Positions 2,838 to 30,000 of a stretch of 40,912 bases of DNA are shown piece by piece (the stretch's first letter is position 1; each line of letters begins with the position of its first letter). Made by a program: the position numbers and the translations under genes. The stretch comes from Ignavibacteriota bacterium (GTDB lineage: Bacteria > Bacteroidota > Ignavibacteria > Tepidaquicellales > Tepidaquicellaceae), in NCBI GenBank assembly GCA_020437545.1, contig JAGQWH010000014.1:1-40912 (forward strand), in the 5' to 3' direction. The notes beneath the pieces are model-generated. The model saw only the letters and a program-made list of their open reading frames with translations. It was not told where the DNA came from and made no database searches.

Positions 2838-3209
2838 TTGAAATTTATTTTATCTTTAATTTTAATGGCTTTGTTAAGTTATGCAGCAAGTTTGTATCTG
2901 CCGTGGTGGAGTATTGCAATAGTAGCATTTTTAGTTTCGGTAATAATTCCATTGAAACCGGCTAAAGCTTTTATTTGTGGTTTCTTATCACTGTTTTTGT
3001 TATGGGGCGGTATGAGTTATATAATAAGCAGTAACAACGGGAATATATTAGCTCAGAAGATATCTCAACTGATGATATTCATGAACAGTCCGTTTTTACT
3101 GATAATACTTACAGGTTTGATCGCAGGACTGGTTGCTGGCTTTGCATCTTTGTCAGGAAGTTATCTGAGATACCGGAAAGAGGATAATTATCATAATAAA
3201 CTGGCATGA
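2838..3209 (+). CDS. small four-helix membrane protein of unknown function
   Basis: 123 aa, very hydrophobic, with four predicted membrane helices at about residues 2-20, 23-39, 44-63 and 84-106, and a basic/polar tail (RYRKEDNYHNKLA). I do not recognise a family. The start is TTG at 2838; the first in-frame ATG would remove half of helix 1, so TTG is preferred. It begins 34 bases after the acylase stop. Its TGA overlaps the ATG of the thioesterase (ATGA), so the two are probably translationally coupled and belong to the operon. A role in membrane anchoring, export or immunity is possible but nothing in the sequence proves it. Confidence 0.75.
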   Translation: MKFILSLILMALLSYAASLYLPWWSIAIVAFLVSVIIPLKPAKAFICGFLSLFLLWGGMSYIISSNNGNILAQKISQLMIFMNSPFLLIILTGLIAGLVAGFASLSGSYLRYRKEDNYHNKLA

Positions 3210-4949: not shown

Positions 4950-7900
4950 ATGCAGAAAGCAACATTTCCAATGCATCCGGCCCAGAAGGATATTTATGTG
5001 GATCAGTTGATAAATAAAGACAGTCCACATTATAATCTTGGCGGATACATTAAATTAAAAGGTTCACTCGATAAAACAAAATTCTTTGAATCCGTGAATT
5101 CTGCTCCGTTTGTTTTTGATGTTTTTAAAATGAGATTTGATAATGAAGATGAAGAAGCAGATTTTTATTTAACTGAAGAGTCAGGTGATAGCGGAATAGT
5201 TGAGATTGATTTTTCCGGAAAGCAAGATCCGGAAAAAGAGGCAATTATCTGGATGCAAAACCGATTTAATACAACCTTTATTTTAAGAAAAGAAAATCCG
5301 TTATATGAACATTCTCTTTTAAAATTATCCGATAAAGAACACTGGTTTTTTGGAAGATATCATCATTTGATCACTGATGGGTTTGGATTTATAGTATTCA
5401 TTAAATATGTTGCTGAAAAGTATAAAACATTGACTGAAGGCGGGGATAATGAATTTAATTATCCTTCTTATCTCGAAGAGATCTCAAAGTCAGGTGAATA
5501 TTTCAATTCGAAAACATTTGGTAATGATGAAAATTACTGGAAAGAAAAGTTCAGTGAAAGATCTGAACCATTATTACAGAGAAAATATATAAGGACTGAT
5601 AAATCTGTAAATGTTAATGGAAAGTATGTTGTAAATATACCGGAAGAAGAAAAAGTTGAGTTATCTGAAATTGAAAAGTCAACGGATTCCGGAATTCAAC
5701 AATTAATTTTAGCAGCATTAATAATTTATTTTGGTAAGACTTCAAATGTAATCGAACCCGTAATAGGTATTCCGGTGCATAAAAGAAGTTCGAAGGTATT
5801 ACGAAATATAGTAGGGATGTTCAGCGGTGTATTGCCATTCAAGGGTGTTTATAAAGAAGATCGTACAGTAAAAGATCTGTTGCAGGAGATCAAACAGGCA
5901 CAGAGAAGTGATTACCGGCATCAGAATTATCCATTAAGCGAGATAAAAAGAAATCTTAACGAAAGTTCAGCAGGAGTTAGGCGTCAAGATAATTTATTTG
6001 AAGTTAGTTTTAATTATGAACCTTTAAATTTTTCACCTGACTTTGGCAGTGAAATAAAATCTGAGATCATAAGACTGGAAAGTGATTATGATACAAATCC
6101 GTTGCAGTTATTCTGGCGGGATTATGGTGAAGAAAGCCCGGTTCAGTTTATTGTTAAATTCAGTAAGGAGTATTTTAATGAGACTGAAATTGAGCTGTTT
6201 GTAAACAGATTATTATTTGTTATAAAGAAATTTCCGGAAAATCTTTCAACGGAATTGAAAGGCTTTGGTATTATTCCTGAGGCGGAGGAGAGTTTGCTGA
6301 AGAGATTCAATGATACATCTTCGGTAAGTAAAACGGAATTTAATTCCGTTTTACTTATAGACATGATACACGATCAGGAAAAGAACACCCCTGATAAACC
6401 CGCACTGGTTTTTCACGACGAAGAGCTTACATATCAGGAACTAAGTGAGCGTTCGAACAGACTCGCAAATTATTTACATTCAAAAGGCGTAAAAAAAGAA
6501 ACCCTGGTTCCGGTTTGTATAGAAAGAAGTATGGATATGATTGTTGGAATTATTGGAATTCTTAAAGCAGGCGGTGCCTATGTCCCGATTGATCCCGAGT
6601 ATCCTGCAGACAGGATAAGTTACATGCTAAAAGATACAGATGCATCTATTGTGTTAACCGGCAGTAAGAGTTCTTTAAAATTACCTGAGTCAGAAAGTAT
6701 AAAAAAAATAATTCTTGATGATCCCGAAACAATTTTAGAAATAAAAAAACAATCATCAGAATATCCAAACACTGATTTGAAATCTGACAATGCAGTTTAT
6801 GTGATATATACTTCCGGCTCGACTGGTAAACCAAAAGGTGTTGTCATTGAGAATAATACAGTAGTTAATCTGATCAAAGCTCAAAGTGAATATTTCAATA
6901 TTACGTCTGATGACAGAATCTTACAGTTTTCGAATTACAGTTTTGATGCGTCTGTCGAACAGATATTTCTGGCTTTGACTAATGGCGCAACATTAGTGCT
7001 ATTCCGTGAAAGACTTCAGCTTGATCAGGATAAATTCAATGAATATTTAACTGAGAAGAATATAACTCATCTTCATGCAACCCCGGCATTTCTTGAAAAT
7101 ATTATAACGGACAGCACCATTTTCACTGATCTGAAAAGAGTAATAGCAGGAGGTGATATTTGTAAAAAGGAATTAAGTGATCAATGGAAAGGAAAGGTGA
7201 AGTTTTATAATGAATACGGACCGACAGAGACAACAGTCACAGCCATAGAATACCTCGCAAATAAAAATGAGGAAGTATTCAGTTATATTTCTTTACCAAT
7301 AGGCAGACCTCTAACCAATATAAAGGTAAACATTGTAAACAGGAATAATGAGATCTGTCCGATCGGAGTTTCAGGTGAGATATGTATATCAGGAAATTGT
7401 CTGGCGAGAGGATATTTAAATCTGCCTTCATTAACTGAGGAAAAGTTTGTTATGAATCCATATGGAAAGGAAAGCGGAGAGTTAATGTACAGAACCGGTG
7501 ATCTTGGAAGATGGATGACAGATGGAAATATAGAATTCCTGGGAAGAATAGATGATCAGATAAAAATTCGCGGTTACAGAATAGAGCTTGGTGAAATAGA
7601 AACCGTCATACTTGATTCAGGGCTTGTAAAAAATTCAGTAGTATTATCCGGGATAGACAGCAGCGGAAATAACAGACTAGCGGCTTATGTAATACCTGAC
7701 AAGGTATTTGACCGCGATAAGATCAGAAATTATCTTAGTAAAAAACTACCTGAATATATGATACCGGCTGTCTGGGTTGAAATGAAATTTTTTCCTGTAA
7801 CATCCAACGGTAAAATAGACAGGAAAGCTTTTCCAGATCCTGAGATAAGTGAAACAATAAGTGCTCATTATCAGGAAGCAGAAAGTGAAATAGAAATTAG

Positions 7901-10900
7901 ATTAACAGAATTATGGAAAGAAATTCTGAAAATTGAAAAAATAGGAATAAATGATAATTTCTTTGAACTTGGCGGTCACAGTTTGAATGCTGTCAGACTA
8001 TCTTCAAAAATAAATAAGCTGATGAATATAAGAACTGACATCGGGACCATATTTTCAAATCCGACTATATTCAGACTTGCAAAGGCAATTGAGATTGAAA
8101 AGAAGAGTCAGTTTACAGAAATTAAAAAACAACCAGAAAAGGATTTTTATGAATTGTCACATGCTCAGAAGAGATTCTGGATTCTGAGCAAATTCAAAGA
8201 TGGATCAGAAGCTTACAATATTTCAAATCTGTTTGAGATAGCCGGCAATTTAAATTCTGAAGCTTTCAGATCAGCTTTCAAAGAAGTGATGGAGAGGCAT
8301 GAAATACTCAGAACTGTATTTGTTGAAAAAAACGGTGAACCATATCAGAAAATACTTTCTTATGAGAGTACGGGATTTGAAATATTTGAAAAAGATCTGA
8401 CGGGATATGAAAACGCTGAAGTCATAATAAAAAAATACCGGGATGAAGATGTAAAGAAAGTATTTGATCTTGAAACCGGTCCGCTTATCAGAATTTATTT
8501 GTTCAGGATTTCAGAAGAAAAACATTTTGTGCTTTTCAATATTCATCATATTATAAGTGATGGCTGGTCAAAGGGAATTTTGATTAAAGAGTTTTTACGT
8601 TTATACAATAGTATCTGCCTGAAAGAAGAAAATGATATAAAGCCACTTCCGATACAATATAAAGATTATACTTCCTGGCACAGTTCAACATTTGAAGAGC
8701 AGGGAAAATACTGGAGAGAAGTTTATAAAAACGGAATTCCTGTTTTGGGTTTCCCGGCAGATAATGAAAGACCGGAAGTTCTGTCATATTCAGGAGATAA
8801 AATCAGGATGACAATTTCGGAAGAATTGACTTCAAAGCTTCAGAAGATGGCAATCAGGAATAATGTTTCTCTGAATAATTTAATGCTGATCCTTTATGGA
8901 TTAAATGTAGCTGCGAAAAGCGGTCAGGAAGATGTTGTAATCGGAACAGTGAGTTCAGGAAGAAGTCACCCTGATCTAGAGGAACTTGTGGGAGTATTCA
9001 TAAATTTTCTTCCGATCAGATTTTTACCTGAGAAGCATCTGAGATTGTCCGAATTTATTGATAACTGCAGAAATGATATTGTAGAAGCATTCAAAAATCA
9101 GGATTATCCTTTCGATCTAATGGTTGAGGATAATATTAAAAAGAGGGATGTCTCGAGGAATCCATTTTTTGATACTATGATGAATTTTCAGATCGATGAA
9201 AATTTATCAGAAAAGAATTCTGAAATTTCAGAAGAGGAAATCAATCCGAATGCCATTGAACTAAAACCTTACGGCTCAGGTAATGAAGATCTTTTTCAGT
9301 CAGTTTTGGACTTTAAACTTGATGCTGTACCGGAAGATTTAAAAATTAATTTACATTTAAGTTATAATACTAAGTTATATTCGGAAGAAAGAATGAAAGA
9401 ATTTCTGAATGATTACATCCGGTTGCTTGAAAATGCTGTCAGTAAGCCGGATAATTATTTGTCAGAATTTATTAAGTGGAGTAATGAAAATAAAAATATG
9501 CAGCCGGATAATAATATAAATACAGAATCAGATTCAGAAAAATCAACTGTGAACTCAATGCCCGTTAATGTATGCTCTTCATTTGTGATAGAGCCTGTAA
9601 AGGAATACATGGAATACTGGAGTAATGAGATCGATATAAATATTAATATTGATCTTGCACCATATAATCAGGTATTTCAGCAGTTAATGAATCCCGGGAG
9701 TTTATTGTACAGTGACAAAGGAATTAATTTTTTATTCATAAGAACGGAAGACTGGCTGAAAGATAAAAAAGAAATCAGTTCTTCAGAACAGATAGATTTT
9801 TTAGATAAGACGTTTAAAGAGTTTAAGGAAATATTTATAAATGCCGTTAACAAAATTTACATCCCGTTTTTAGTAATGATCGTCCCGGTGAATATTATAA
9901 CGGAAAAAGATTTTCAGAAAGAAACTGTTGCTCATTTAGATAAAATAAATAAAGTGCTTGATCTATTTCTTAAGGAGATACCTTCTGTACAATACATAGA
10001 GATCGATATTATAAAAGATCTGTATGATGTCGGGGAAATTTATGATCCGAAAACAGATGAACTCGGGCATATGCCATTTACACCTGAGTTTTATGCAGCT
10101 CTCGGAACATATATGACAAGAAAGGTCAGCGCTTTTATGAATCCTTCTTACAAAGTAATTGCTCTTGATTGCGACAATACTTTATGGAAGGGAGTTTGCG
10201 GAGAAGCAGGAGCGTTAAATGTTAAGATCGATGAGAACCATACTGATCTGCAGGAATTTTTCATCGAAAAATACAACGAAGGATTTTTACTTGTATTGAG
10301 CAGCAAGAATAATAAAGAAGATGTGTGGGAAGTATTTGACAAACATCCCGGGATGAAATTAAAGCGTGAACATATTGCTGCGCACAGGATCAACTGGGAT
10401 CCTAAGCCGCAGAATCTTTTATCGATAGCGAAGGAATTAAATCTGGGTATCAACAGCTTTATATTTTTAGATGACAATGAATTTGAGACTGATCAGATGA
10501 CACAGAACTGTCCTGATGTATTATCATTAACCTTGCCCGATGAAGATGAAAGTTTTTCAGAATTCTTAAATCATATCTGGGCATTTGATTATTTCCGGAT
10601 CACTGATGAAGACAGAAAAAGAAATGAGATGTACAGAGTTGAAAAACAGAGAAAGACAGAGGAAGAAAATTTCGGAACGCTGGAAGATTTTCTGAAATCA
10701 CTTGAGATAAAAGTAAATATGAAATCTCCTGAACCAAAAGATCTTGAAAGGGCGGTTCAGTTGACATTGAGAACAAATCAGTTCAATCTAAACGGTGTTA
10801 GAAAAACTCCTGAAGAAGTAAAAAGTTACATCAATAACGATAATTCCATTTGCAGAATTATTGATGTAAAAGACAGATTCGGAGAATACGGCATAGTAGG

Positions 10901-11174
10901 TTTGATACTGGGAAAAATTAACGGAAATGCTCTTGATGTTGATACATTTCTTTTAAGCTGCAGAGTACTGGGCAGGAATGTGGAAGGAACGATCTTAACA
11001 GAGCTTGAAAATTATTGTAATGAAAAAGGATTAAGCGTGATCAATCTTAATTTTCAGCCAACACAAAAAAATAAGCCATTTCAGGAATTTCTTGCAAACT
11101 CAGATTGGAAGATTGATACAAAGACAAACTTGCACAGTAAAATCATAAAACTTACAGAGGAAACCGCGGTTTAA
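4950..11174 (+). CDS. NRPS, C-A-T-C-FkbH: initiation module and glycerate half-module
   Basis: 2074 aa. C domain at 1-450 with HHLITDG at 138-144; its N-terminus (HPAQKDIY) and the DGFGF after the His motif resemble starter/first-module C domains, so it may N-acylate residue 1. A domain A1 at about 468-960: TSGSTGKPKG near 621, Asp666 anchoring the substrate amine, A10 Lys955. Hand-read code DAEHIGEVTK is not a standard one, and the acidic positions 239 and 322 might suit a basic or amino side chain (weak). T domain at 975-1050, LGGHS with Ser1011. Second C domain at 1066-1510, intact HHIISDG at 1199-1205. FkbH domain at about 1535-2060 with DCDNT (1740-1744). No carrier follows: the partner T is the first domain of the next protein, and the two coding regions are in the same frame, separated by one TAA. 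The order implies X1 is passed to a glyceryl thioester, giving an ester bond. Confidence 0.95.
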   Translation: MQKATFPMHPAQKDIYVDQLINKDSPHYNLGGYIKLKGSLDKTKFFESVNSAPFVFDVFKMRFDNEDEEADFYLTEESGDSGIVEIDFSGKQDPEKEAIIWMQNRFNTTFILRKENPLYEHSLLKLSDKEHWFFGRYHHLITDGFGFIVFIKYVAEKYKTLTEGGDNEFNYPSYLEEISKSGEYFNSKTFGNDENYWKEKFSERSEPLLQRKYIRTDKSVNVNGKYVVNIPEEEKVELSEIEKSTDSGIQQLILAALIIYFGKTSNVIEPVIGIPVHKRSSKVLRNIVGMFSGVLPFKGVYKEDRTVKDLLQEIKQAQRSDYRHQNYPLSEIKRNLNESSAGVRRQDNLFEVSFNYEPLNFSPDFGSEIKSEIIRLESDYDTNPLQLFWRDYGEESPVQFIVKFSKEYFNETEIELFVNRLLFVIKKFPENLSTELKGFGIIPEAEESLLKRFNDTSSVSKTEFNSVLLIDMIHDQEKNTPDKPALVFHDEELTYQELSERSNRLANYLHSKGVKKETLVPVCIERSMDMIVGIIGILKAGGAYVPIDPEYPADRISYMLKDTDASIVLTGSKSSLKLPESESIKKIILDDPETILEIKKQSSEYPNTDLKSDNAVYVIYTSGSTGKPKGVVIENNTVVNLIKAQSEYFNITSDDRILQFSNYSFDASVEQIFLALTNGATLVLFRERLQLDQDKFNEYLTEKNITHLHATPAFLENIITDSTIFTDLKRVIAGGDICKKELSDQWKGKVKFYNEYGPTETTVTAIEYLANKNEEVFSYISLPIGRPLTNIKVNIVNRNNEICPIGVSGEICISGNCLARGYLNLPSLTEEKFVMNPYGKESGELMYRTGDLGRWMTDGNIEFLGRIDDQIKIRGYRIELGEIETVILDSGLVKNSVVLSGIDSSGNNRLAAYVIPDKVFDRDKIRNYLSKKLPEYMIPAVWVEMKFFPVTSNGKIDRKAFPDPEISETISAHYQEAESEIEIRLTELWKEILKIEKIGINDNFFELGGHSLNAVRLSSKINKLMNIRTDIGTIFSNPTIFRLAKAIEIEKKSQFTEIKKQPEKDFYELSHAQKRFWILSKFKDGSEAYNISNLFEIAGNLNSEAFRSAFKEVMERHEILRTVFVEKNGEPYQKILSYESTGFEIFEKDLTGYENAEVIIKKYRDEDVKKVFDLETGPLIRIYLFRISEEKHFVLFNIHHIISDGWSKGILIKEFLRLYNSICLKEENDIKPLPIQYKDYTSWHSSTFEEQGKYWREVYKNGIPVLGFPADNERPEVLSYSGDKIRMTISEELTSKLQKMAIRNNVSLNNLMLILYGLNVAAKSGQEDVVIGTVSSGRSHPDLEELVGVFINFLPIRFLPEKHLRLSEFIDNCRNDIVEAFKNQDYPFDLMVEDNIKKRDVSRNPFFDTMMNFQIDENLSEKNSEISEEEINPNAIELKPYGSGNEDLFQSVLDFKLDAVPEDLKINLHLSYNTKLYSEERMKEFLNDYIRLLENAVSKPDNYLSEFIKWSNENKNMQPDNNINTESDSEKSTVNSMPVNVCSSFVIEPVKEYMEYWSNEIDININIDLAPYNQVFQQLMNPGSLLYSDKGINFLFIRTEDWLKDKKEISSSEQIDFLDKTFKEFKEIFINAVNKIYIPFLVMIVPVNIITEKDFQKETVAHLDKINKVLDLFLKEIPSVQYIEIDIIKDLYDVGEIYDPKTDELGHMPFTPEFYAALGTYMTRKVSAFMNPSYKVIALDCDNTLWKGVCGEAGALNVKIDENHTDLQEFFIEKYNEGFLLVLSSKNNKEDVWEVFDKHPGMKLKREHIAAHRINWDPKPQNLLSIAKELNLGINSFIFLDDNEFETDQMTQNCPDVLSLTLPDEDESFSEFLNHIWAFDYFRITDEDRKRNEMYRVEKQRKTEEENFGTLEDFLKSLEIKVNMKSPEPKDLERAVQLTLRTNQFNLNGVRKTPEEVKSYINNDNSICRIIDVKDRFGEYGIVGLILGKINGNALDVDTFLLSCRVLGRNVEGTILTELENYCNEKGLSVINLNFQPTQKNKPFQEFLANSDWKIDTKTNLHSKIIKLTEETAV
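6325..6357. repeat. 33-base perfect inverted repeat in the C-A1 linker
   Basis: Two 16-base arms, taagtaaaacggaatt (6325-6340) and aattccgttttactta (6342-6357), are exact reverse complements separated by one T. They lie inside the coding sequence, in the linker between the first C domain and A1 (encoded SKTEFNSVLL). The RNA could fold into a long tight hairpin. Equivalent linkers in other modules do not carry it. Confidence 0.9.
9552..11159 (+). other. FkbH-like HAD domain (glyceryl loading) at the C-terminus of the first NRPS
   Basis: HAD-superfamily subfamily IIIC/FkbH domain. FkbH proteins take 1,3-bisphosphoglycerate, remove phosphate and load glyceryl on a carrier protein, as in FK520, tetronate and bryostatin pathways. 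Visible here are the DxDxT motif (ALDCDNTLWKGVCGEAG, residues 1738-1754), SSKN about 35 residues later, FLDDNEFE near 1837 (the acidic HAD motif), and the C-terminal acyltransferase-like part with LRTNQFNL and SCRVLGRNVEG. Nothing essential seems missing. It is fused directly behind a C domain instead of standing alone, and the receiving T domain is encoded by the next gene. Confidence 0.88.
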
Positions 11175-11180
11175 AATATA

Positions 11181-14100
11181 TTGAAGAAAAAGCAATCAAA
11201 TACATTAAAAGGCAAAACAGGAAAAGACCTTCTTAGTTTACTAAGTTCTAAAGATAAGAAAGCCGTTAGTCCTGAAAACAGAAACTTTATTGCTCCGGAG
11301 AGTGAAACTGAAAAAATTCTGTTTGAGTACTGGAAGACCTTGCTTGGGCATAGTGATTTCGGAACGGGCGATGATTTCTTTATGAGTGGCGGAAACAGCA
11401 TAAAAGCTATTCAGCTGCTGTCCCGAATCTCTTCGCATTTTTCCGTTGAACTTGAGACAAGTGAAATTTTTCTAAAGCCAACCATTTCTCAGTTATCTGA
11501 ATTAATAGATAAGAAAAAAGAAAACAGATCTGATCAAAGATCAGAAACTTCTATTTTAGTCAGAAAAAGACCTGAAGAAATTCCATTATCATTCAGTCAG
11601 GAAAGATTGCTGTTCATAGACAAGTTAGAAGGAAGTTTGCAGTACCATTTACCGGCTGTATTTAAATTAAATGGAAAGCTTAATAAAGAAGCTTTAGACA
11701 GTGCTTTAAAAGAGATCATCAAAAGACATGAAATTCTTAGGACGGTATATTTTGAAATTGACGGAAAATCATATCAGAAGGTCAATGAAAATAAAGTTTG
11801 GAAATTAAATGAATCTGACGGAACAATATTTACTGGTGATCCTGAAGGATTAAGAAAATATATTCAGCAATTGATAAACAAACCATTTGATCTTTCAAAT
11901 GATCACATGGTAAGAGCAGATCTTATCAACATCGGGGCTGATGAAAATATTTTAGTTATAACATTACATCATATAGCTTCAGACGGATGGTCAGTTACAA
12001 TATTTGCAGAAGAGTTTCTGGAACTATACTCCTCGTTCATAGAAAACCGGAAGAGTATTTTGCCTGATCTGAAGATACAATATGCAGATCACGCAATGTG
12101 GCAGCGTGAAAATATTCACGGTGAAATTCTGAATCACAAACTGGATTTCTGGAAAAAAGAACTTAAGGGAGTTGAACCACTCGAGCTGCCGACAGATCTT
12201 CCAAGACCAAATCTTCAAAGTATCCGCGGTGCTTCCGTAAAATTTAAAATTGAAAATGATTTAAGAGAAAAACTTACCGTTTTAGGTAAAGAAAATAATG
12301 TTACACTTTTCATGACCTTGTTTTCTGCATTCAATGTTCTGCTTTACAAGTATACAGGTCAGGAAGATATATGTATAGGAACTCCTGTAGCAGGAAGACA
12401 AAAGCAGGAATTTGAAAAACTCATCGGATTCTTTATAAACACTCTTGCATTGAGAAACGAAGTGAAAGGTAGTTTGCCGTTTACTGAATTTTTAAAAGAA
12501 GTCAAATCAAATTCTCTTAGAGCTTTTGGAAATCAGGAAGTACCTTTTGAGAAAGTAGTGGAAGCAACTGTCAAAGAGAGGATACTAAACAGAAGCCCAT
12601 TGTTTCAGGTAATGTTCATACTTCATAACACTCCCGAAGCTGAAGCTTTGAAATTACAGGATGTAAAAATTGAAAGAGAAGATCTAATCCCAGAAACATC
12701 TATGTATGAAATTACTTTCAATATCACTGAAACTCAGAGTGAATTGAAATGTGAGATCATATACTGTACGGATCTGTACAAAGAGAATACGATTTTACGA
12801 ATGGCAGATCATTATTCAGAGCTGCTGAATTCCATTATTAGTTCGCCTGAAGAAAATATTGATTCATTATCAATATTAACCGAAGCTGAAAATGCTATAT
12901 TAAATTCATTTACCGGAACTACTGCAGAATATCCTGAAAAGAAAAATATTACAGATATTATAGATGAACAGGTAAAGAGAACTCCGGAAAACACAGCGTT
13001 GATTTTTGAAGATCTGAAATTGTCATATCTTGAACTTAATAAACGTTCTAATCAGATCTCAAATTTTCTGTTAAGTAAAGGGATTAAAGAAGAAACATTA
13101 ATTCCGATCTGCATAGAACGGGGATTTGAAATGATTGCCGGAATACTTGGAATTCTGAAAGCAGGAGCAGCCTATGTTCCCATTGATCCCGAATATCCTG
13201 ATGACAGGAAAAAGTTTATATTAGAAGATACAGGAGCTGAAATTATTCTCAGCAGTAAGAAATGCAGTTCAAAAATTCCAATTGAATATTCAGATATAGT
13301 TGCAGAGCTTGACACAGATTCAGAGATAAGAAGTCAGTCAAAAGAAACGCCGGAAGTAAATATTGGTCCGGATAATCTTGCTTATATAATTTACACTTCG
13401 GGTTCGACCGGTAAACCGAAAGGTGTAATGATAGAGCACGGATCAGTTGTAAACCTCATTTATACCCAGACAAATTATTTTAAGTTAACAAGTGATGAAA
13501 GAATTTTGCAATTCGCAAATTACAGTTTTGATGCATCAGTCGAACAGATCTTTTTAGCATTATTTAATGGTCTGCCTTTGGTTCTGTTTCCTGACGGATT
13601 GCAGCTCAACAAAGAGCTCTTTGAAAAATATTTAGTTGATCAGAAAATAACACACCTTCATGCTACTCCGACATTCCTTGAAAATATAAAACCGGAAAAT
13701 CACAGTTATTTAAAAAGAGTCATAGCCGGCGGTGATGTATGTAAACCGGAGCTGGCAGAGTACTGGAAAGATAAAACCACTTTTTATAATGAGTATGGTC
13801 CGACTGAGTCAACTGTAACAGCAATAGAATTTAACGCATCAGAAAATAAAATTATTGGCAATACACTTCCGATCGGTAAACCACTTTCCAATATTGAAGT
13901 TTACATCCTTGATAAAGCCGGAAAGAAGCTACCTGTTGGAATCAACGGAGAGTTGTATTTAGGAGGTGATTGTTTAGCCCGGGGGTATTTGAATTCATCT
14001 GATCTTACAAAAGATAAGTTCATAAGAAATCCTTTCAATTATAAAAGCGATTCAAGATTATATAAAACAGGAGATATCTGCAGATGGCTTGAAGACGGCA

Positions 14101-17100
14101 ATATTGAATACAAAGGCAGAATAGATGATCAGGTAAAGATCAGAGGTTTCAGAATTGAGCTTGGTGAAATAGAGAGTGTCATTCAGGAAAGCGGATTGGT
14201 TAAGCAGTCTGTTGTAATAGCAGCGGATACATCAACAGGAGGAAAGAGACTAATCGGATATATTGTGCCAAAAGGGAAATTTGATAAAGATGAAATAGTT
14301 GCATATCTGAGCAGCAAACTACCTGAGTATATGATCCCTGCAATATTTGTAGAAATGGAAAGTTTGCCATTGAATAAGAACGGAAAGGTTGACAGAAAAG
14401 CTTTACCGGATCCGGATCTGAGTGAACTTCTGACCAATGAATATGAAGCTCCCCGAAATGAAATTGAAAATTCTTTAGCCGGGATTTGGAAAGAATTGCT
14501 CAATGTAGAAAAAGTCGGTATCAATGATAATTTCTTTGAACTCGGAGGTGACTCAATTATAACTATACAGGTAGTCAGCAGAGCAAGGAGAAACGGTATC
14601 GAATTGAAACCTGCAGATATATTTATTTATCAGACTATCAGAAAATTATCAGCAGCAATAGAGACAAGATCAAAGGAAATTTATTCAGGTGAGCAGGGAA
14701 TGCTAACCGGTACCAGCGGATTACTTCCAATTCAGCAAGCATATTTTGAAAGAGCAGGGAAGGACATTTCGCATTTCAATCAAAGCATTCTGCTTGGAAT
14801 AGATAAAAGTATAACACAGGAAATGCTCGGTAATGCTGTAGAAAATTTAACATCATATCACGATGCATTAAGATTTGAATATCATAAAAATGAAAATGAA
14901 TGGGTACAGAAATACGGAACTGCAAATGGGATTTTACTGACTGTTGATCTGAGAAAATCAAAAGCCGGTAAAAAGGAACTGGAAAATTTAATTAAAGAAC
15001 ATGCTGAAAAATATCAGAAGAGTCTTAACATAGAAAAAGGCGAACTTGTAAGATTTGTGCTTGTATTAACACCTGAAGAAGAATTAAATAACAGGATATT
15101 TATTATCATTCATCATCTTGCAATTGATGGTGTCTCCTGGAGAATATTACTTGGAGATCTTGAAATGTTTCTGGATAATTACCGGAATGGCATGGAACTG
15201 GTGCTTGATGAAAAAGGAAGTTCATACAGACAATGGTATCATGCACTTGAAGAATATGGAAAGAGCAAGAGATTATTATCACAGGAAAATTTATGGAAAC
15301 AATTTTCGGACAGCTGTAAACCAATTAAAGTCGATAAAGAATATTCAGAGCAATTACAGGCAAAAGATTTTGAGTTAAAAACAGTTGAACTTGATCAGAC
15401 TAATACTCAGCTATTGTTAAAGGATGTCCCGGGTATATATCATACTGAAATAAATGATATTTTAGTTTGTGCTTTAGCATTAACTTTATGCGGCAGAGAA
15501 AAGTCTGAACAGATTACAATAGGAATGGAAGGGCATGGACGTGAGGAAATTTCGGACAATATAGACCTTAGCAGGACTGTAGGGTGGTTCACAAGTTTAT
15601 ATCCTGTTATGCTGAACATTGGTGCAGAAAAAAATATTGAGGATCATATAAAGTCTGTAAAAGAGCAGATGAGAAAAATTCCGGATAAAGGTCTTGGATA
15701 TGGTGTGCTGAAGTATATTAATAAGAACGAAAATTTTTCTGAAAGTGTTACTCCGGAAATCTTATTCAATTATTTAGGACAACTTGATAATGTGACAGGC
15801 GAGAAAAATATACTTTCGGGAACTCCTGAAGCAGCCGGAACAGACATTAGTGCAGAACAAAAGATAAACGAGAAACTTACTATAAATGCGATCATTAAAA
15901 ATGATCGCTTAACACTAAACTGGAATTACAGCAGTAAACATTTTGAAACTGATACTATCAATAAACTCACCGAAGATTATTTAAAAAATCTGAATTCAAT
16001 AATTACTCATTGCATTGAACTTGAAAATACAGGAGCAATTTATACACCATCAGATTTTGGACTTGGCTCTGAGATCAGCTATAAAGAACTTGACAGATTT
16101 CTTGATGAAAAATACGGAGATTCAATACGAAGAGAAAAAATAGAATCTATATACAGATTAAGCGGACTGCAGGAGGGAATGCTTTTTCATGCATTGTATG
16201 ATACTGATGGCGGAGCATATATTGAGCAGTTGAGTTGTGATCTTAAAGATCCTGATATTGAATTGATCAGGAAGAGCTGGAATCAACTTATCAAAAATCA
16301 CAGTTCGCTTAGGAGCGGATTTTATAATGATGTGTTTAGAATTCCCGTACAGGTAGTATACAGGGATGTGGAGATGCCGGTAACACTACTGGATCTAAGC
16401 GGGATGGAAAGAGAAGAGCAGATTGCGGCTGTAGAGAGATTTAGCGAAAAAAACCGTTTAAACGGTTTTTCCCTGAGCGCCGTGCCGCTTATGAACATCT
16501 GCATGATTAAACTCGATGAAAACAATTACAAAATGGTATGGACTTCACATCATTTGCTATTCGACGGCTGGTCACTTGCAATCCTGATGGAAGAGTTTTT
16601 GAAGACTTATGAAAATCTTGTAGGCGGTAATGAAATTGTAAAAACAGATTCAGATAATTATCTGGATTATATTAGATTCATTGAGAGGAAAGATAAAGAT
16701 GTCCAGCTTAATTACTGGAAAAATTACATGGAAGGTATTGAGCAAAGTACTTTGCTTCCATTTCCGGGAATCACTACTCAGCGAACTAAAGGCATCGGCG
16801 AATATGATTCTCTCAATCTGATACTGAATGAAGAGACCAGACAGAAAGCAGAATCATTCGCTCAAAAGAATCGATTAACATTGAATACCTTATTGCAGGG
16901 CGTATGGTCTTATCTTCTGCACAGATATACGGGAAGTGAAGATGTTGCATTCGGGGTGATCGTATCAGGCCGTCCGGATGAACTGCCGGGTATAGAAAAA
17001 AAAGTCGGACTATACATTAACACACTTCCTTTACATTCCAGACTTGAACTTAACAATAATGCAGAGACGATCAACTGGCTGCAGGACATTCAAAGCAGGC

Positions 17101-20100
17101 AGGTTGAATCTGCAAAATTTCAATACACACCTTTACAGGAAATACAGAATCTTACCGGTATAAGTGGTGATCTTTTTGACAGTATAATTGTCTTTGAAAA
17201 TTATCCGCTGAATGAACTGATCAGATCAAAGAACTGGAAACTGAAAGTTGATAATGTCCGGATGAAGGAGCAAAGCAATTATCCTTTATCATTACTCATA
17301 AATAATTCGGATCAGATAAATATTAATTTCATTTATAATAAAGACATACTAAACAACGAATATATAAATGAAATAAGCAGACACTTTGAAAATGTACTTA
17401 AGCAGATAATTTCCGGTGAGAAAGAAAGTATCAATGATATAAATTTACTTTCAGAATCTGATGAGAAAAAATTATTAATTGAATTTAATGATACGACAGC
17501 TGTATATCCCGGTAATAAAAGCGCTATAGAATTATTTGAAGAGCAGGTATTAAATACGCCTGATTCTGTTGCAGTGGTTTACGGGAATGATAGCATTTCT
17601 TATAAGGAACTCGATGAACGGGCAAATAAACTGGCTAATCATATAATTGCAAAAGGTATTAATCCCGGTGATAAGATCGGGCTGCTGTCTTACAGATGTA
17701 TAGATATGATGACAGGCATATTCGGTATCCTGAAAGCGGGATGCGCATATGTTCCATTCAATACTGATTACCCGGCAGAGAGAATAAAATTCATCACAGA
17801 GGACTGCGGAATTAAAAATATTATTTATACCGATAAAGGTTTACTTGAAAAAAGCGGATTAGAAGATTCAGCTGTTTATGATTTTATTTACATAAAAGAT
17901 TCAGAATCTGATTCAGCTAAAGCTCCCGGTATAAAAACAGATATCGATTCATGTATTTATGTGATGTTTACTTCCGGAACAACCGGCCGTCCGAAAGGTA
18001 TTGCAGTAAGTCACAGAAATGTAATCAAGCTGGTTTATGATACCGGCGGCATTGCGATCAGAGAAGGTGACCGCGTGCTTCAATGGTCTAACTATTCCTT
18101 TGACGGTTCTACTTATGATATTTATGGTTCGCTTCTGACCGGTGCAAGTCTTCATCTGATAAAAGATGAATGGGCTTCTGACGGGGATGAACTTGCGAGA
18201 GTGATCACTGAACAGAAGATCTCTGTTGTTTTTATGACAACAGCTCTTTTCAATACTATAGTCGATATTAATTCAGAGGCATTCAGAGGATTGAGGAAAA
18301 TATTATTCGGCGGTGAGATGGTTTCGCTTTCACATGTTAACAGAGCTCTTGATGTCACAGGTGAAAATGTGATAATGCATGTTTACGGACCGACAGAGAC
18401 AACTACCTACGCAACTTCTTATCCTGTTAATGAAAAAAGAGATGAAGGTACAGTTCCGATCGGAAAGCCTTTATCGAATACTCAGCTTTACGTTCTTGAT
18501 CCTTCAGGAAAATCTGTGCCTGTTGGTGTTGGAGGGGAACTGCATATAGGCGGTGATGGCGTATCGATGGGTTATATAAATAATGAAGAATTAACAAAAG
18601 AAAAATTTATAACAAATCCTTTCAGCAAAGATCCGGATTCAAGAATTTATAAAACTGGCGACTTATGTAGATGGACTTCTGAAGGGAATATTGAATATCT
18701 CGGAAGGATAGATGATCAGGTAAAGATCCGAGGATACAGAATTGAACTCAGTGAGATCGAGAGTGTGCTGTTTGAAATTGATTCTGTAAGTAATGCAGTC
18801 ATACTTGCAAAAGAAGATAAGGCAGGAACAAAAAAACTTGTTGCCTATGTCGTTCCGGAAGACGGATTTAAGTTTAATAAAGATGAGATCACAACTAAAC
18901 TCAGAAGCAAACTTCCTGATTATATGATCCCTGCTTTATGGGTTGAAATGGAAAGTCTGCCTCTGAATACAAGCGGGAAGATCAATAAGAAGGAATTACC
19001 TGATCCCGATGCAAGTCAACTTCTGAGCAATGAGTATGTTGCACCGCGAAATGAAACTGAAGAAAAACTGGCTGCAATCTGGAAAGATCTTTTGAACATA
19101 GAACAGGCGGGAGTGAATGATAACTTTTTTGAACTCGGCGGACATTCTTTATTGGCAATGAGACTGATCTCGGCTATCAGGAGAGAATTTAATTCTGAAT
19201 TAGGTATAAAAGATATTTTTTATTATCCGACAATTGCTGAACTGGCTGAGCAAATTGGCAAAGAAAATCCGGTGTCAGTTTTACCGGCTGTTGTATCAGG
19301 TGAAAGACCTAAACATATTCCTCTGTCATTCAGTCAGGAAAGACTATGGTTTATTGACCGTCTTGAAGGAACGGTTCAGTATCATATTCCGGCTGTATTC
19401 AGATTGAAAGGTGAACTAAACAAGGATGCTTTATCAAAAGCATTGCAAAGTATAGTTGAAAGACATGAAGTTTTAAGAACTGTTATCTATGAAAAAAATG
19501 GAACAGGATATCAAAAAATTCTTAATTGTAAGGATTGGTCTCTAAACGAATCGGACGGATCTGACATAAAGAAAGATCCGGACAGTCTTCAGAATTATAT
19601 TCAGGATATAATAAATAAACCCTTTGATCTTTCTGCTGATTATATGCTGAGAGCTGATCTGATAAAAACAGATGAGAAGGAAAGTATTCTTGTTGTGACG
19701 ATGCATCACATCTCATCAGACGGCTGGTCGCTTTCAGTGATTGTAAATGAGCTGGCTGAATTGTACAAAGCTTTTGATGAAAACAGAACTCCTGACTTGT
19801 TACCTATGCCGATCCAGTATGCGGATTTTTCTGTCTGGCAGAAAAAATATCTGACTTCTGAAGTACTGGATAAGAAGCTTGAATACTGGAAATCGAGATT
19901 GACCGGAGCCGAACCGCTTCAGCTTCCTGCAGATTTTACAAGACCTGCTGTGCAGAGTATCAGAGGCGCTTCATATGAATTTAAGATAAGCAAAGAACTG
20001 ACTGATAAACTCGAGCAGTTGTCAAAACAAAAAGGCGCTACTTTGTACATGACCTTACTTGCAGCATTCAATGTACTTCTGTACAGATACAGCGGGCAGA

Positions 20101-23100
20101 AGGATATCAGTGTAGGAAGTCCGGTTGCCGGTAGACAGCAGAAGGAAGTTGAACAGTTGATAGGTTTTTTTGTAAATACGCTTGTACTCAGAAATGAAAT
20201 TGAAAATTCATTTACGTTTTTAGATTTACTTGATCAGGTCAGAACAAATACATTCGAGGCATTTGAAAATCAGGAAGTACCTTTTGAAAAAATTGTAGAA
20301 GCTGTTGTAAAGCAAAGGGATGTAAGCAGAAGTCCGCTTTTTCAGATAATGTTTATTTTACAAAACGCGCCCGAAGTGCCGAAGATCGATCTGAATAAAC
20401 TTGTATTGGAGAAAGAAGATTTTGTAAATAACATTTCAAAGTTTGATATATCTGTTTCCATGACAGAAACTCCAGAAGGACTTATTGGTTCTGCTGATTA
20501 TTGCACGGATCTTTTCAAAGAGAATACGATCAAAAAAATGATGACTCATTTTACCGAGTTGTTAAATTCAGTCGCAGAAAATCCCGGGAATAAGATCGGC
20601 TCATTGCCGATGCTTACTAAAGAGGAAGAGCATCAGATACTTTCAGAATTTAACGGTAAGGTAGTTGATTACCCGAAAGATAAAACCATATTTGAATTAT
20701 TTGAAGAACAGGTTCAGAAGACTCCTGACAGTATTGCTGTAGTTTTTGAAGATAAGACACTCACATTTAAAGAGCTGGATGAGAAATCAAATCAGCTTGC
20801 TCACTATCTTCAGAGCAAGGGTGTAAAGATTGAGACATTCGTTCCGATTTGTCTGGAGAGAAGTCTTGAGATGATAATCGGATTATTTGGAATAATGAAA
20901 TCAGGCGGAGCTTACGTACCGGTAGATCCGGAATATCCTCAGGAGAGAATTAATTTCCTACTTGAAGATACTTCTGCTTCAATAGTTGTAAGCCGGAAAG
21001 AAAGCAGTTCGCGTTTTATTTTTCCGGAAAACATTGTGCTTGTAAATCTTGATTCTGACTGGAGTGAGATAGAAAAGTGTCCCAAAGAAAAAGTAAATGC
21101 AGATATTAAATCAACCAATCTTGCATATGTGATCTATACTTCCGGATCGACAGGACAGCCGAAAGGTGTAATGAATGAGCACATGGGAGTTGTCAACAGA
21201 CTGCTCTGGGGAAGGGATTATTTTAATTTGACTTCAGAGGATTCTATTCTTCAGAAAACAACCTATTGTTTTGATGTGTCAGTATGGGAATTGTTTTCAT
21301 TCATAATCTCGGGAGCGAAGCTTGTATTTGCAAGACCCGGTGGTGAGAAAGATACTTCATATTTGAAAACAGTAATTGACAAAGAAAAAATCACTATGAT
21401 ACATTTCGTTCCGTCGATGCTGGAGATATATCTGACCGACATTGAGCATGGAGATAATGCAGGATTAAAATATGTGGTCTGCAGCGGTGAGGCGCTTAAA
21501 CCTTCGCATGCGGAATTGTTCAAAGAGAAATTCGAAAATACGGAATTGCATAATTTATACGGACCGACTGAAGCTGCAATAGAAGTTACATACTGGGAAA
21601 TGCCGAGAGACTATAAAAAAAATGAGATCGTACCGATTGGAAAAGCAATATCAAATACATCAATGTATATTCTGAATAGTGAAGATGAACTTGTTCCCGT
21701 AGGTGGAATCGGACAGCTTCATATCGGCGGAATACAGGTTGCAAGAGGTTATCTGAATCGTCCTGAATTATCTGATGAAAAATTTGTGAAAGATCCTTTC
21801 AGTAAAATTCCCGGAAGCAGAATGTACAGAACCGGTGATCTGAGCAGATGGCTGCCTGACGGCAATATTGAGTATGTAGGAAGAATGGATGAGCAGGTTA
21901 AAATAAGAGGATTCAGAATTGAACTTGGTGAAATAGAAAGTGTACTGATGCAAAGCGGTCTGGTGCAGCAGACAGTTATGCTTGCGCCTGAAGATGCTGG
22001 CGGTAACAGGAGACTTGTAGCATATGTAACAAGTAACGGAAAGTTTGACAAAGAAGAAGCAATATCATATCTGCGAAGTAAACTCCCTCAGTATATGGTT
22101 CCAGCTGTGTGGGTTGAAATGGAAAGTTTTCCTTTAAACCAAAGCGGAAAGATAAATAAAAAATTATTACCGGAGCCTGCTGATATTGAATTTGGATCAA
22201 ATGAATATATTGCGCCGAGGAATGTTACTGAAGAGAAACTTGCCGGGATATGGAAAGAATTGCTTCATGCCGAACGTGTCGGTATCCGAGATAACTTTTT
22301 TGATCTTGGCGGCCATTCGCTTTTGGCAATGCGTGTTATTTCTTCAGTACGGAAAGAGCTCGGATATGAACTTTCCATTAAGGACTTTTTCATTCAGCCG
22401 ACAGTTGAAGAACTTGCAGCGCTTCTGGAAAAAAAATCAGGCAGCACAGTTGATAAACTTCCGTCTGTCATGGTAAAAGAGAGACCGGAATTTATTCCTT
22501 TATCCTTCTCACAGGAAAGGATATGGTTTATTGATAAACTTGAGGGAAGTATTCAGTATCACATGCCGGCGGTATTGAGATTAAAAGGCAAAGTGAATAC
22601 AGATGCGCTGGTCAATACTTTTAAAAATATTGTCAACAGACATGAAGTGTTAAGAACGGTTATCAGGGAACATGAAGGTAAAGCTTATCAGTTTGTAAAT
22701 GAAAAAGACGGATTCGAACTTGAGTTTGTCGATGGTGTAAAATACAAAAACGATCAAACCGGGTTAGAGAATTATATTCAGGAGCTGATCAATGTTCCGT
22801 TTGATCTTGCAAGTGATAACATGCTCAGAGGTCATTTAATCAAATTAAATGAAGATGAACAGATACTTATATTAACAATGCATCACATAGCATCAGACGG
22901 CTGGTCCATTTCAGTAATTGTAAAAGAACTCGTTGAATTATACAGAGCCTATGAAGAGAAGCGGGATCCGGATCTTAAACCTCTGGAAATACAGTTTGCT
23001 GATTATTCGATCTGGCAAAGGGAATATTTGCAGGGTGAAGTTTTAGATAATAAATTAAATTACTGGAAAGAAAAATTAAATGGTACTGAGCCGCTTCAGC

Positions 23101-26100
23101 TTCCGACTGATTTTGCAAGACCGGCTGTACAGAGTAAAAAGGGAGCGAATGCAAATTTCAATATTGACAAAAAGCTGACAGAGTCGCTGCTTAAATTTTC
23201 CCGTCAGAATGATGTAACTTTATTCATGACTTTGCTATCGGCTTATAATGTAATGCTTTACAGATACAGCGGACAGGAAGATTTCACAGTCGGCAGTCCG
23301 GTTGCAGGCAGGCAACAGGCTGAGACTGAGGATATGATAGGTTTCTTTATCAATACGGTTGCGCTGAGAAGTGAGATAGATGGCGAATTACCATTCAGAG
23401 ATTTTTTACAGAAAGTCAGATCAACTACTCTTGAAGCATACGAACATCAGGATGTTCCATTTGAAAAAATAGTAGATGCAGTTGTAAAACAAAGAGACAT
23501 GAGCCGAAGTCCATTGTTTCAGGTTTCGTTTATGCTTCAGAATACACCCGAAGTTCCGGAGCTCAAACTAGGTGAAGCGATCCTGAAAGTTGAAGAGTTC
23601 TCAAATAATATTTCAAAGATCGATATTACATTCAGTCTGACCGAAACGCCGGACGGCATTGAAGGAAATGTAGAATATTGTACTGACTTATATACTGAAG
23701 AGACTATCCTGCGAATGACTTCACATTTCAAAGAAATACTTACTTCAATTTTAAAAGCTCCTGATCAGAAGATCGGTACATTAAATATGATCACTGAAAT
23801 AGAGGAAAGACAGTTACTTGTTGAGTTTAATGATAATGAAAGAAATTATCCAAAAGAAAAAACTATTGTTTATATTATTGAAGAATATGGAATAGAGATC
23901 CCGGATTCAATTGCATTGGAATATGAGTTTGAGAAAGTAACATACAGAGAGCTTAATGAACGCGCTAATCAGTTTGCGCATTATTTAAAGGATAAAGGAG
24001 TTAAGACCGGGACACTTGTTCCGATCTGCATAGACCGAAGCATTGAAATGATCATTGCAATATTCGGAATACTTAAAGCCGGCGCTGCGTATGTTCCGAT
24101 CGATCCTGAATATCCTGAAGACAGAATTCAGTTCATGCTGGAAGATATTGATGCATCACTTCTTGTAACCAGCAGAAAGACTTTTAATAGCGGATTGATA
24201 TTACCTGATTTAAATAATTTAGAAATTATTGAAATTGATTACGAACAGGATGAAATTAAAAAACATTCAAAAGAAAAACTTCAGACTGAGATAACTCCGG
24301 GTGATCTTGCATATGTGATCTACACATCCGGTTCGACAGGAAAGCCGAAAGGAGTAATGATCGAACACAAAGGCGTTGTGAATCTTGCATTAAGTCAGGA
24401 AGAATTACTCCGGCTGAAACCGGGAATGAAGACACTACAGTTTGCTTCATCAGGATTTGATGCTTCCTGTTATGATATATTCAATACACTTTTGAGTAAG
24501 GGTTGTCTTGTGCTTTGCAATAAAGAAGACATACTCTCGGCGGATAAATTTCAGGATCTGATAAACAAATACGGTGTTGAATTAGCAACGCTTCCTTCGT
24601 CATTTCAGCAGACGATCAGAGATTTAATTGGTGAAATGAAATCAATTAAAACAATAGTCTCGGCAGGAGAAGCGCTGAATATAGAAACTGCAAAAACATT
24701 TACTTCAAATGGAATCAGAGTCGTCAATGCTTACGGACCGACTGAAACCACTGTCTGCGCAACTCTGACGGATGATCCGATCAGAGAACACAATGTTGTG
24801 ACAATTGGCAAACCAAATCCAAATCAGCAGGTATTCATTGTTGATAAATACATGAATGTCTGTCCGGTCGGAGTGCCTGGAGAAATATGTGTGGCAGGCG
24901 TCCAGGTAGCGAGAGGATATTTAAACCGGGCTGAACTTTCATCCGAAAAATTTGTAAGTAATCCTTTTGACAAAGGAAACTCTCCGAAATTATACAAAAC
25001 CGGTGATCTCGGTAAATGGTTATCTGACGGAAATATAGAATATCTTGGCAGGATAGATGATCAGATCAAACTGAGAGGATACAGAATAGAATTGGGTGAA
25101 ATTGAAAATGTTTTACAGCAAAGTGAATATGTAAAGCAGGCTGTCGTATTGGTAAAAGCAGATGAGATCGGAAATAAGAGACTAGTCGGATATATTGTTC
25201 CGGAAGATGATTTTGTGTTTGAGAAAGAAGAAATTTTAAATCATATAAAAAAGAAATTACCGGATTATATGATTCCTGCGCTTTGGGTGGAGATGGAAAG
25301 TCTTCCTGTTACACCAAGCGGAAAGATCGACAGGAAAGCATTACCAGAACCGGAAGCAGGAAGTATAAACGCAGAGTATGAAGCTCCGCGTAATGAAACT
25401 GAAAAAGCTTTGAGCGCTATATGGAAAGAACTTCTTCACGTTGATAAGGTTGGAATACATGATAATTTTTTTGATCTTGGGGGAGATTCAATCATTACCA
25501 TTCAGGTACAGAGCCGCGCAAGACGTCTGGGATATGAATTGAAACCGAATGACATTTTCATTCATCAGACCATCAGCAGTTTATCTGCAGCTCTTGCTGA
25601 AAGGTCAGAGACTGCCGTCACCGGCGAGCAGGGAATCTTAAGCGGTAAATGCGGATTGCTTCCAATTCAGCAGTGGTATTTTGAAGGAACTAAATCAGAT
25701 ATTTCACATTTCAATCAAAGTGTTTTATTGTCAATCGATAAATCAGTTACTCCGGAAGTACTGGATAAAGCTGTTAATAAATTAACCGTACAGCATGATG
25801 CGCTCAGATTTATTTATCATTATAATGAAGAGAATGAAAACAAATGGGATCAGGAGTATGGTTTCAATACAGGAAAGCTATTGGAAATAGATCTTCAGTT
25901 TTGTAAAAAAGAAGATCTTGGTATGGAGATTAATTATCACTCGGATAAAATTCAGAGAAGTCTTGATATTTTAAAAGGAGAGATTGCAAAATTTGTATTG
26001 TTCAAAACTCCGGGAAGTGATGATAAAAACAGAATTCTTATTGTAATTCATCACCTTGCAATTGACGGAGTTTCATGGAGAATAATTCTGGATGACCTTG

Positions 26101-27070: not shown

Positions 27071-30000
27071 ATGGAAATAACTAAAAAAGCATCCGATCAG
27101 GGTAAATCGCGGAAAGACCTCATAGAGGGATTGTACCGTTTAAGCGGCTTACAGCAGGGAATGCTTTTTCACGGGCTGTATAACGAAGGCAAAGGCGCAT
27201 ATTTAGAGCAGATGTCGTGTGATTTTATAAATCTCGATATCGATATCTTAAAAAAGACATGGGATCATATAATAAAACGACATTCTATCTTAAGAACATC
27301 TTTTATCTATAGTGAAATAAGCATACCGGTTCAGAGTGTAAACAGGGAAGTAAAATTACCTCTTGAGATTCTAGACTACAGCGATTTGCCAAAAGGTAAG
27401 CAGGAAGCAGCATTGAAAGATCATGAAGAAGCTGACCGTAATAAGGGATTTGATTTTAATGTTGCACCTCTGATGAGAATAGCTCTGATAAAATTAAGTG
27501 AAGACAGATACAGAATGTTATGGACATGGCATCATATTCTGTTTGACGGTTGGTCCCTTCCTGTTTTAATGGAAGAGTTCTTAAGCACATATGAAACTTA
27601 TCTTGCCGGAAAGGAACCTGTCAAAAAGGATGTTGATAAATTTGAAGATTATATAAGATACATTGAGCGGGGAAGTAAAGAGCGTCAGGAAAAGTACTGG
27701 CGTAATTATATGAAGGGAATTGAGCAGAGTACATTACTTCCTTTTATAGGTGCGACTGCAGACAGAACAAAAGGTAAAGGTGAATACGAAACCGAAGTTT
27801 TACAATTAGATGAAAAGACTACTTCGCTTATAGAAGAGTTTGCTCAAAGGAACAGGCTTACGATAAATACAGTAATGCAGGGAGTCTGGTCTTTACTTCT
27901 TCATCACTACACCGGAAATGAAAATATTGCATACGGAGTAATTGTCTCCGGTCGACCGGATGATCTTCCGGGAGTTGAGCAACGGGTAGGATTATATATT
28001 AATACACTTCCGTTGCATTCAATATTAAAAGACGGAAAGAGTCTGGTCAAATGGCTGCAGGATATGCAGAAGGAGCAGTTGTCCTCCAGACTATATCAAC
28101 ACACACCGCTTCAGGATATTCAGAAATGGACAGGAGTCACAGGAGATCTTTTTGACAGTCTGCTGGTATTTGAAAATTTTCCTGTAAGCGAATTAGTAAA
28201 GTCGAAGAAATGGAGTCTTGCAATTGAGAATGTAGAAATAAAAGAGAGAACTAATTATCCTCTGACACTTATGATAGGCAGCTCGAAAGAGACTACCATA
28301 AACTTCAGTTACAATTCTGAATTACTTAATAATGAATATGTAAAAGAGATCAAAGAGCACTTCAGAAATGTACTCCTTCAGGTTATAGATGCTGACGAAA
28401 CGGATGTTACCGAAATTGATATTTTAACAAAAGATGAAAAAGAAAAACTCTTAGTTGAATATAATGATACAACTGCGGTTAATGATTTAAGTAAAAGCAT
28501 TGCAGATCTGTTCGAAGCTCAGGCAGCAAAGACGCCGGATAATGCAGCACTTATATTTGACGGAGTTGAACTTTCATATTCAGAATTAAATAGACGTTCT
28601 AATCAACTTGCGCATTTACTGAAGTCAAAAGGTGTTAAAGCCGATTCACTTGTACCGGTTTGCCTGAACCGGGGTTTTGAGATGATCACTGCTGTTTTAG
28701 CTGTTTTGAAAGCGGGTGGAGCATACGTTCCTATCGATCCTGAATATCCTTCCGAACGAAAAGAATTTATGCTGAAAGATTCTGGCGCTAAGGTATTTAT
28801 AAGCAGTAAAGATTTAGTGGATAATTTTGATTTTGAAATATCAACAGATGTCGATGTAATGTTCACTGATTCTGATGAGGCTTTGATCAGCGGACAATCT
28901 CCGGAAAATTTAAAAGACAAGAGAGATCCCGAAAATTTAGCTTATATGCTTTACACATCCGGTTCGACCGGAAATCCAAAAGGTGTAAGGATGCCGGGAA
29001 GAAACCTGGTAAATTTACTTTTATGGCAGGACAAACAATTTAAGAACAGGCAGAGAAAAGTATTACAGTTTACTGCTCTTAATTTTGATGTGAGTTTTCA
29101 GGAAATATTTTCTACGCTTTGTTTTGGAAGTACATTATGTCTGATTACGGGAGAGCGCCGTATTGACATGGCAGAGGTGATGAAAGATATTCAGAAATCG
29201 GGTATAACTCATTTATTTGTTCCGTTCATAGTTTTAAAAAATCTTGCGGAATATATTGAAACAGGTACAGGTAAAACATATTCCCTTGAAGAAATAATCA
29301 CGGCAGGTGAGCAGTTAAAATTAACAAAAGAAATAAACTCATTACTCGAAAAGGGGATCTCAATTGTTAATCAATACGGTCCGACAGAAGCACACGTGGT
29401 AAGCAGCTATACTGTTCCGTCAAAGAATAATCTATCAGACCTGCCTCCTATCGGTAAACCTGTTGATAATACGCAATTATATATACTTGACGGTAAAGGC
29501 AAACCTGTCCCTGCCGGAGTAGCAGGTGAATTGTATATAGCCGGTGTGCAGGTAGCAAGAGGTTATTTAAATCTTCCGGAGCTTACTGAAGAAAAATTTG
29601 TCAAAGATATTTTCAGCAATGATGAAAATGCAAGGATGTACAGAACAGGCGATCTTGCAAGATGGCTGCCTGACGGTAATATTGAATATCTAGGAAGAAG
29701 TGATGATCAGATTAAGATAAGAGGTTACAGAGTAGAGCTTGGCGAGATCGAAAGTGTGCTTCAGAAAAGTGAGCTTGTAAAAGGAGCTGTTGTACTTGCA
29801 AAAGAAGATAAAGCAGGCAATAAGAGACTGATCGGTTATGTTGTGCCAAACGGCAATGGAGATTTTGATAAAGGAACAGTGGATTCATATTTAAGAGCGA
29901 GACTTCCTGAGTATATGGTGCCGGGTGTCTGGGTGAAGCTTGACAGCATTCCTTTGAATGCAAATGGAAAGGTTGACAGGAAAGCACTTCCGGATCCTGA

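Follow-up and report, generated by a model that had tools for sequence, protein, structure and literature searches.

Does the single in-frame TAA that parts an FkbH domain from the carrier (T) domain it should load mark a true gene boundary, or does it interrupt one continuous gene? The window (i.e., the whole stretch of DNA that was analysed, 40,912 bases) is the entire contig C55, and the features of the two genes concerned all lie on its forward strand. An ORF of 2074 aa (ORF1, 4950–11174), which encodes an NRPS subunit with the domain order C-A-T-C-FkbH, ends with TAA (11172–11174) and is followed in a common frame by an ORF of 5291 aa (ORF2, 11181–27056), an NRPS subunit with the T domain first. 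Between them stand only AAT (11175–11177) and ATA (11178–11180), that is, a 6-nt intercistronic gap reading AATATA (11175–11180), after which comes the TTG start of ORF2 (11181–11183). An earlier note on this DNA had described the junction in these terms, and it was also right that changing the TAA to a sense codon would give a protein of over 7,300 residues (7,368, or 7,369 codons with the final stop) and that ORF2 must begin at a TTG: 11181 is the sole ATG, GTG or TTG ahead of the T domain, and the next start codons, TTG 11340 and ATG 11382, both fall within that domain. A perfect 12-base palindrome, AAACCGCGGTTT, was spotted by eye at 11161–11172; it was put aside as a signal, as such palindromes are likely by chance in 40 kb (a mental estimate) and as it encodes conserved residues.

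The same arrangement is present in a second species of the genus, an uncultured Ignavibacteria MAG (G002, record CALMST010000252.1), where an ORF of 2074 aa, equal in length to ORF1, is followed by the identical TAA, a 6-nt gap, the TTG and an ORF of 5289 aa; in neither species do the two genes contain a second stop, and all downstream domains are open. The sole change between TAA and TTG is AAT to AAC (i.e., the gap reads AACATA in G002), and over both genes the two species share 84% DNA identity and 85% protein identity. By whole-genome search the locus is present in two of the three genomes of the genus, the window's own included, and the genome in which it was missed (G001) is 67% complete. 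Over the 28 codons that start five codons before the stop, the species differ by 4.8%, versus a median of 15.5% for such intervals; intervals as low as this or lower make up 0.4%, and equally low spots occur elsewhere in both genes. Codons that encode the same residue are changed in 3 of 27 cases at the junction versus 30.6% overall (binomial P = 0.017, post hoc). In the first 24 codons of each gene, the same count is 2 of 21 for ORF2, 3 of 22 for the next gene (ORF3) and 6 of 21 for ORF1, so the start of ORF2 is in the range of other gene starts and 11181 behaves as an ordinary conserved gene start; the first 18 codons of ORF2 carry no amino-acid change. To judge from the two sequences, the agreement in stop, length of gap and TTG is more than a product of chance. 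The earlier note had held that many relatives sharing the stop, plus a clear conserved start, would show a normal gene boundary; such a relative is indeed found, but only one, G002.

Where in the module does the boundary fall? The match to TIGR01686 places the FkbH domain at ORF1 residues 1733–2050 (10146–11099; E = 1.6e-86), with a score of 290.4 bits that is above the curated cut-off of 146.65, and the GGNS motif of the T domain is at about residue 66 of ORF2 (domain at 11301–11520, approximate borders). With the FkbH match reaching to residue 2050 of 2074 and the T motif near the start of ORF2, the stop falls in the FkbH/T linker, and the break does sit between FkbH and its T domain, as had been noted earlier; this T domain is the presumed acceptor of a glycerate-type unit. 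Among solved structures, a single distant match to the FkbH part turned up, the uncharacterized protein 3slr_A. The C-FkbH-T order (C directly before FkbH, T directly after) is present, but across two genes: FkbH and T are not one polypeptide, given the TAA plus TTG in the window and in G002, and as they lie on separate ORFs we class the locus as a split variant of the C-FkbH-T module and not as a strict member. By motif, the full line in G002 comprises 13 A domains and one FkbH in four NRPS genes (2074, 5289, 8041 and 2484 aa), and its other two subunit borders lie before a C domain, which makes the FkbH/T border the only intramodular one.

To place the TTG among the starts of this genome, we used 265,683 bases from 20 of its contigs, on which a simple ORF caller found 194 genes, and took as a Shine-Dalgarno (SD) core a match of 4 nt at −18 to −4. 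Such a core precedes 16 of 142 sampled ATG genes, compared with 232 of 7,100 shuffled upstreams (3.3%), and the bases upstream of starts are A-rich. There is indeed no SD core before TTG 11181, as the earlier note had stressed, but the observation has little weight: SD cores are rare genome-wide, so a missing one is normal here, and, as 126 of the 142 ATG genes are without it, its absence is uninformative as a mark of a weak or false start. The common frame is likewise real but of little weight, since 16 of 31 tandem pairs 0–30 nt apart are in frame as called by a crude longest-ORF caller; with about half of close pairs in frame, it needs no special cause. Four of the 31 pairs are TTG-started, a share that is inflated because the earliest start codon is always the one called, and TTG is a weaker start than ATG. 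SD-less initiation with an A at −3 is described for Bacteroidetes (PMC6847099), and the TTG of ORF2 has an A at this position, as in that account. According to PMC10666635, reinitiation drops steeply as the distance between genes grows (by 40–80% when the distance in native H. volcanii and E. coli pairs was increased to 13–14 nt), and close gene pairs are enriched in subunits of complexes; the 6 nt between ORF1 and ORF2 are a very short gap, as in translationally coupled pairs.

Related clusters were then compared for fused and split versions of the module. Protein searches were run at each rank of the window from genus to phylum, and also within the family and class of G484 and within the order of G348 (overlapping scopes). 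A scan of genome contigs gave one locus, G002 itself, so that other phyla are represented by four plasmid records among 119 matching. Sixty-six distinct FkbH loci resulted, 20 of which score above 285 bits, namely the window, G002 and 18 others. In all 18 others FkbH and T share one ORF, as shown for 17 by an HMM made from 18 T domains of these clusters and for L079 by visual inspection of the alignment; only the window and G002 are split. The 46 remaining loci scored lower and have no fused T in the stretch compared, with a separate T within 1.5 kb in 8 of them. In a tree of 62 of the 66 rows (midpoint root; the rows dropped scored below 110 bits or were of insufficient length), the split pair is the sister of a fused C-FkbH-T protein from Niallia (support 96/91) and lies inside a clade otherwise made up of fused proteins, with moderate clade support of 91/78; one row, L120 (G794), is labelled as lacking T from a shorter stretch, and the longer stretch of the same locus, L113, has the fused T and is counted among the 17. 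Read most simply, this nesting points to a single fission in the present lineage. The sharing of the C-FkbH-T core with a plasmid from Bacillota may reflect transfer. A further FkbH match that contains one TAA was seen at L125 (G855:C377), in the genus of G348.

These data bear on several other readings of the junction. The assembly from which the window comes is a draft of 429 contigs, and a sequencing or assembly error might have placed a stop in one continuous gene; however, the same TAA, gap and TTG are found in a separate assembly whose DNA is 16% different over both genes, an independent identical error is not credible, and the chance that the base-call error suggested by the earlier note explains the junction is negligible. 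The note's other suggestion, leaky or programmed readthrough of the TAA, would yield some fused megasynthetase of ~7,368 residues beside the two separate proteins. Both species preserve the frame through the stop and the gap, and the change from AAT to AAC would be synonymous if translated, but two gap codons have no statistical power, close pairs in this genome are often in frame regardless, and a simpler route is offered by the TTG that both species have in frame six bases further on. TAA is, moreover, the least leaky of the bacterial stops. Compared with shuffles, the RNA at the junction has no unusual fold (z = +0.72; equalled or surpassed by 151 of 200 shuffles), and we regard readthrough as highly improbable.

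There is equally little probability that the split disables the glycerate module in a pseudogene-like decay, such that the line skips or mis-loads it: parting a loading domain from its carrier could uncouple the two, yet in both species the downstream domains are all open and conservation is good (85% amino-acid identity over both genes), with no further stop. A slightly better case, though still a very poor one, can be made for separate FkbH and T genes as the ancestral state, the relatives being later fusions. Stand-alone FkbH is common, given the 46 of 66 loci without a fused T and the 8 with a separate T nearby, but the split pair nests in the fused clade as the sister of a fused C-FkbH-T protein and away from the stand-alone enzymes; this nesting depends in turn on the moderate support for the all-fused clade and on the midpoint root.

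We conclude that the TAA is very probably a true, retained boundary and that the C-FkbH-T module was split into two genes before the species separated, with products that would act together in trans. The gene split proposed in the earlier note therefore stands, but it is not recent, as it predates the divergence of two species that are 15% apart in protein and 16% in DNA. Apart from being a somewhat unusual subunit border, this is a normal operon boundary; it is not an artefact, and recoding is not supported. In such an established fission, an ancestral NRPS C-FkbH-T module would have been broken in the FkbH/T linker before the two species of the genus parted, and ORF2 would now be begun at TTG 11181 in the SD-less, A-rich style of this genome, most likely with the help of ribosomes that have just finished ORF1 (i.e., by termination-reinitiation, with probable translational coupling). 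The two proteins would assemble so that the terminal C and FkbH domains of ORF1 act on the initial T domain of ORF2: FkbH would load, in trans, a three-carbon, glycerate-type unit on this T domain, and the C domain at the end of ORF1 would join the unit to the residue carried on the ORF1 T domain. Of the 7,369 codons of the two genes, 2,821 could become a stop by a single base change, and an in-frame start lies within the next three codons in 11% of cases, so such a fission is easily reached by mutation. According to PMC7489565, stand-alone FkbH enzymes load discrete ACPs, so a split here may also be easier to bear than elsewhere.

How the two proteins might find each other can be addressed only tentatively. 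ORF2 opens with a Lys-rich N-terminal element (11181–11234) that is kept in G002 and is a possible docking element. That the conserved ends, ...KLTEETAV of ORF1 and MKKKQSNTLKGKTGKDLL... of ORF2, form an undescribed docking pair, which would hold an NRPS loading domain and its carrier together across an intramodular junction, is a conjecture from sequence that we think rather unlikely to be correct. Structure models built from two-sequence alignments had mean pLDDT values of 40.2 for the FkbH-T read-through stretch and 42.2 for the ORF2 N-terminus, too poor to seek a docking fold, and a helix hint at ORF2 residues 14–22, in a model with a mean pLDDT of ~40, carries no evidential weight.

The locus indicates that an NRPS loading domain and its carrier can sit on two genes and be kept so through species divergence, and this retention agrees with an ability of FkbH enzymes to work in trans. 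Engineers of assembly lines seek permissive cut points, for which the FkbH/T linker is an obvious candidate; at the same time, the worry of mis-sequencing at this site of the contig is removed. It is the place of the cut that is new, and the possible docking pair is putative.

Several features of the neighbouring genes were also recorded. ORF3 (27071–40912) runs off the end of the contig; its match in G002 has 8041 aa and is followed by the 2484-aa NRPS gene and then by a 576-aa ORF, a putative ABC transporter as judged from its first residues. Upstream of the NRPS line, 347–2803 encodes an 818-aa protein of the penicillin-amidase family with a weak match to PvdQ. A deacylating maturation step is described for vioprolide and proposed for corramycin (PMC10099666), and by analogy the 818-aa protein may possibly serve in such a step. 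A 123-aa ORF at 2838–3209, with a TTG start in both species, overlaps the ATG of a thioesterase gene; it has no Pfam match and looks hydrophobic by eye.

An FkbH/T split in an NRPS was not found described in open-licence PMC full text. The closest architectural parallels are the vioprolide and corramycin lines, reported as FAAL-ACP-C-HAD/FkbH-T, in which FkbH substitutes for an A domain and the unit that it loads is glycerate (PMC8949500, PMC10099666). The likeness is in the C-FkbH-T order within an NRPS, and it is from this likeness that the unit handled here is provisionally called glycerate. In those accounts, however, FkbH and T belong to one assembly-line architecture, with the corramycin FkbH module within comK, whereas here a stop lies between them; those lines also start with FAAL-ACP, whereas ORF1 starts with C-A-T. 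Split modules of trans-AT PKSs resemble the present case in that one subunit ends within a module, after a catalytic domain and ahead of the module's remaining domains, and such subunit junctions are described with docking domains (PMC9113145); here the junction is an NRPS FkbH/T one, without a recognised docking domain in models that are poor. The nearest FkbH outside the genus by tree path (43.6% identity, with four of the 119 matching plasmid records compared) is that of a protein on the Niallia taxi plasmid pMEGANia (L077), which shares the C-FkbH-T core but has it in one fused ORF and in the setting KS-T-C-FkbH-T-reductase; this protein (11344–18366, 2341 aa) is without an entry in the gene table of its record. 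In tetromadurin biosynthesis, FkbH enzymes act on discrete ACPs (Mad7/Mad8 and Mad14/Mad12; PMC7489565), so that FkbH and carrier are on separate proteins with loading in trans, as would be the case here; the tetromadurin enzymes and ACPs, however, are described as small and free and feed a polyketide line, whereas in the present system both partners belong to megasynthetase subunits.
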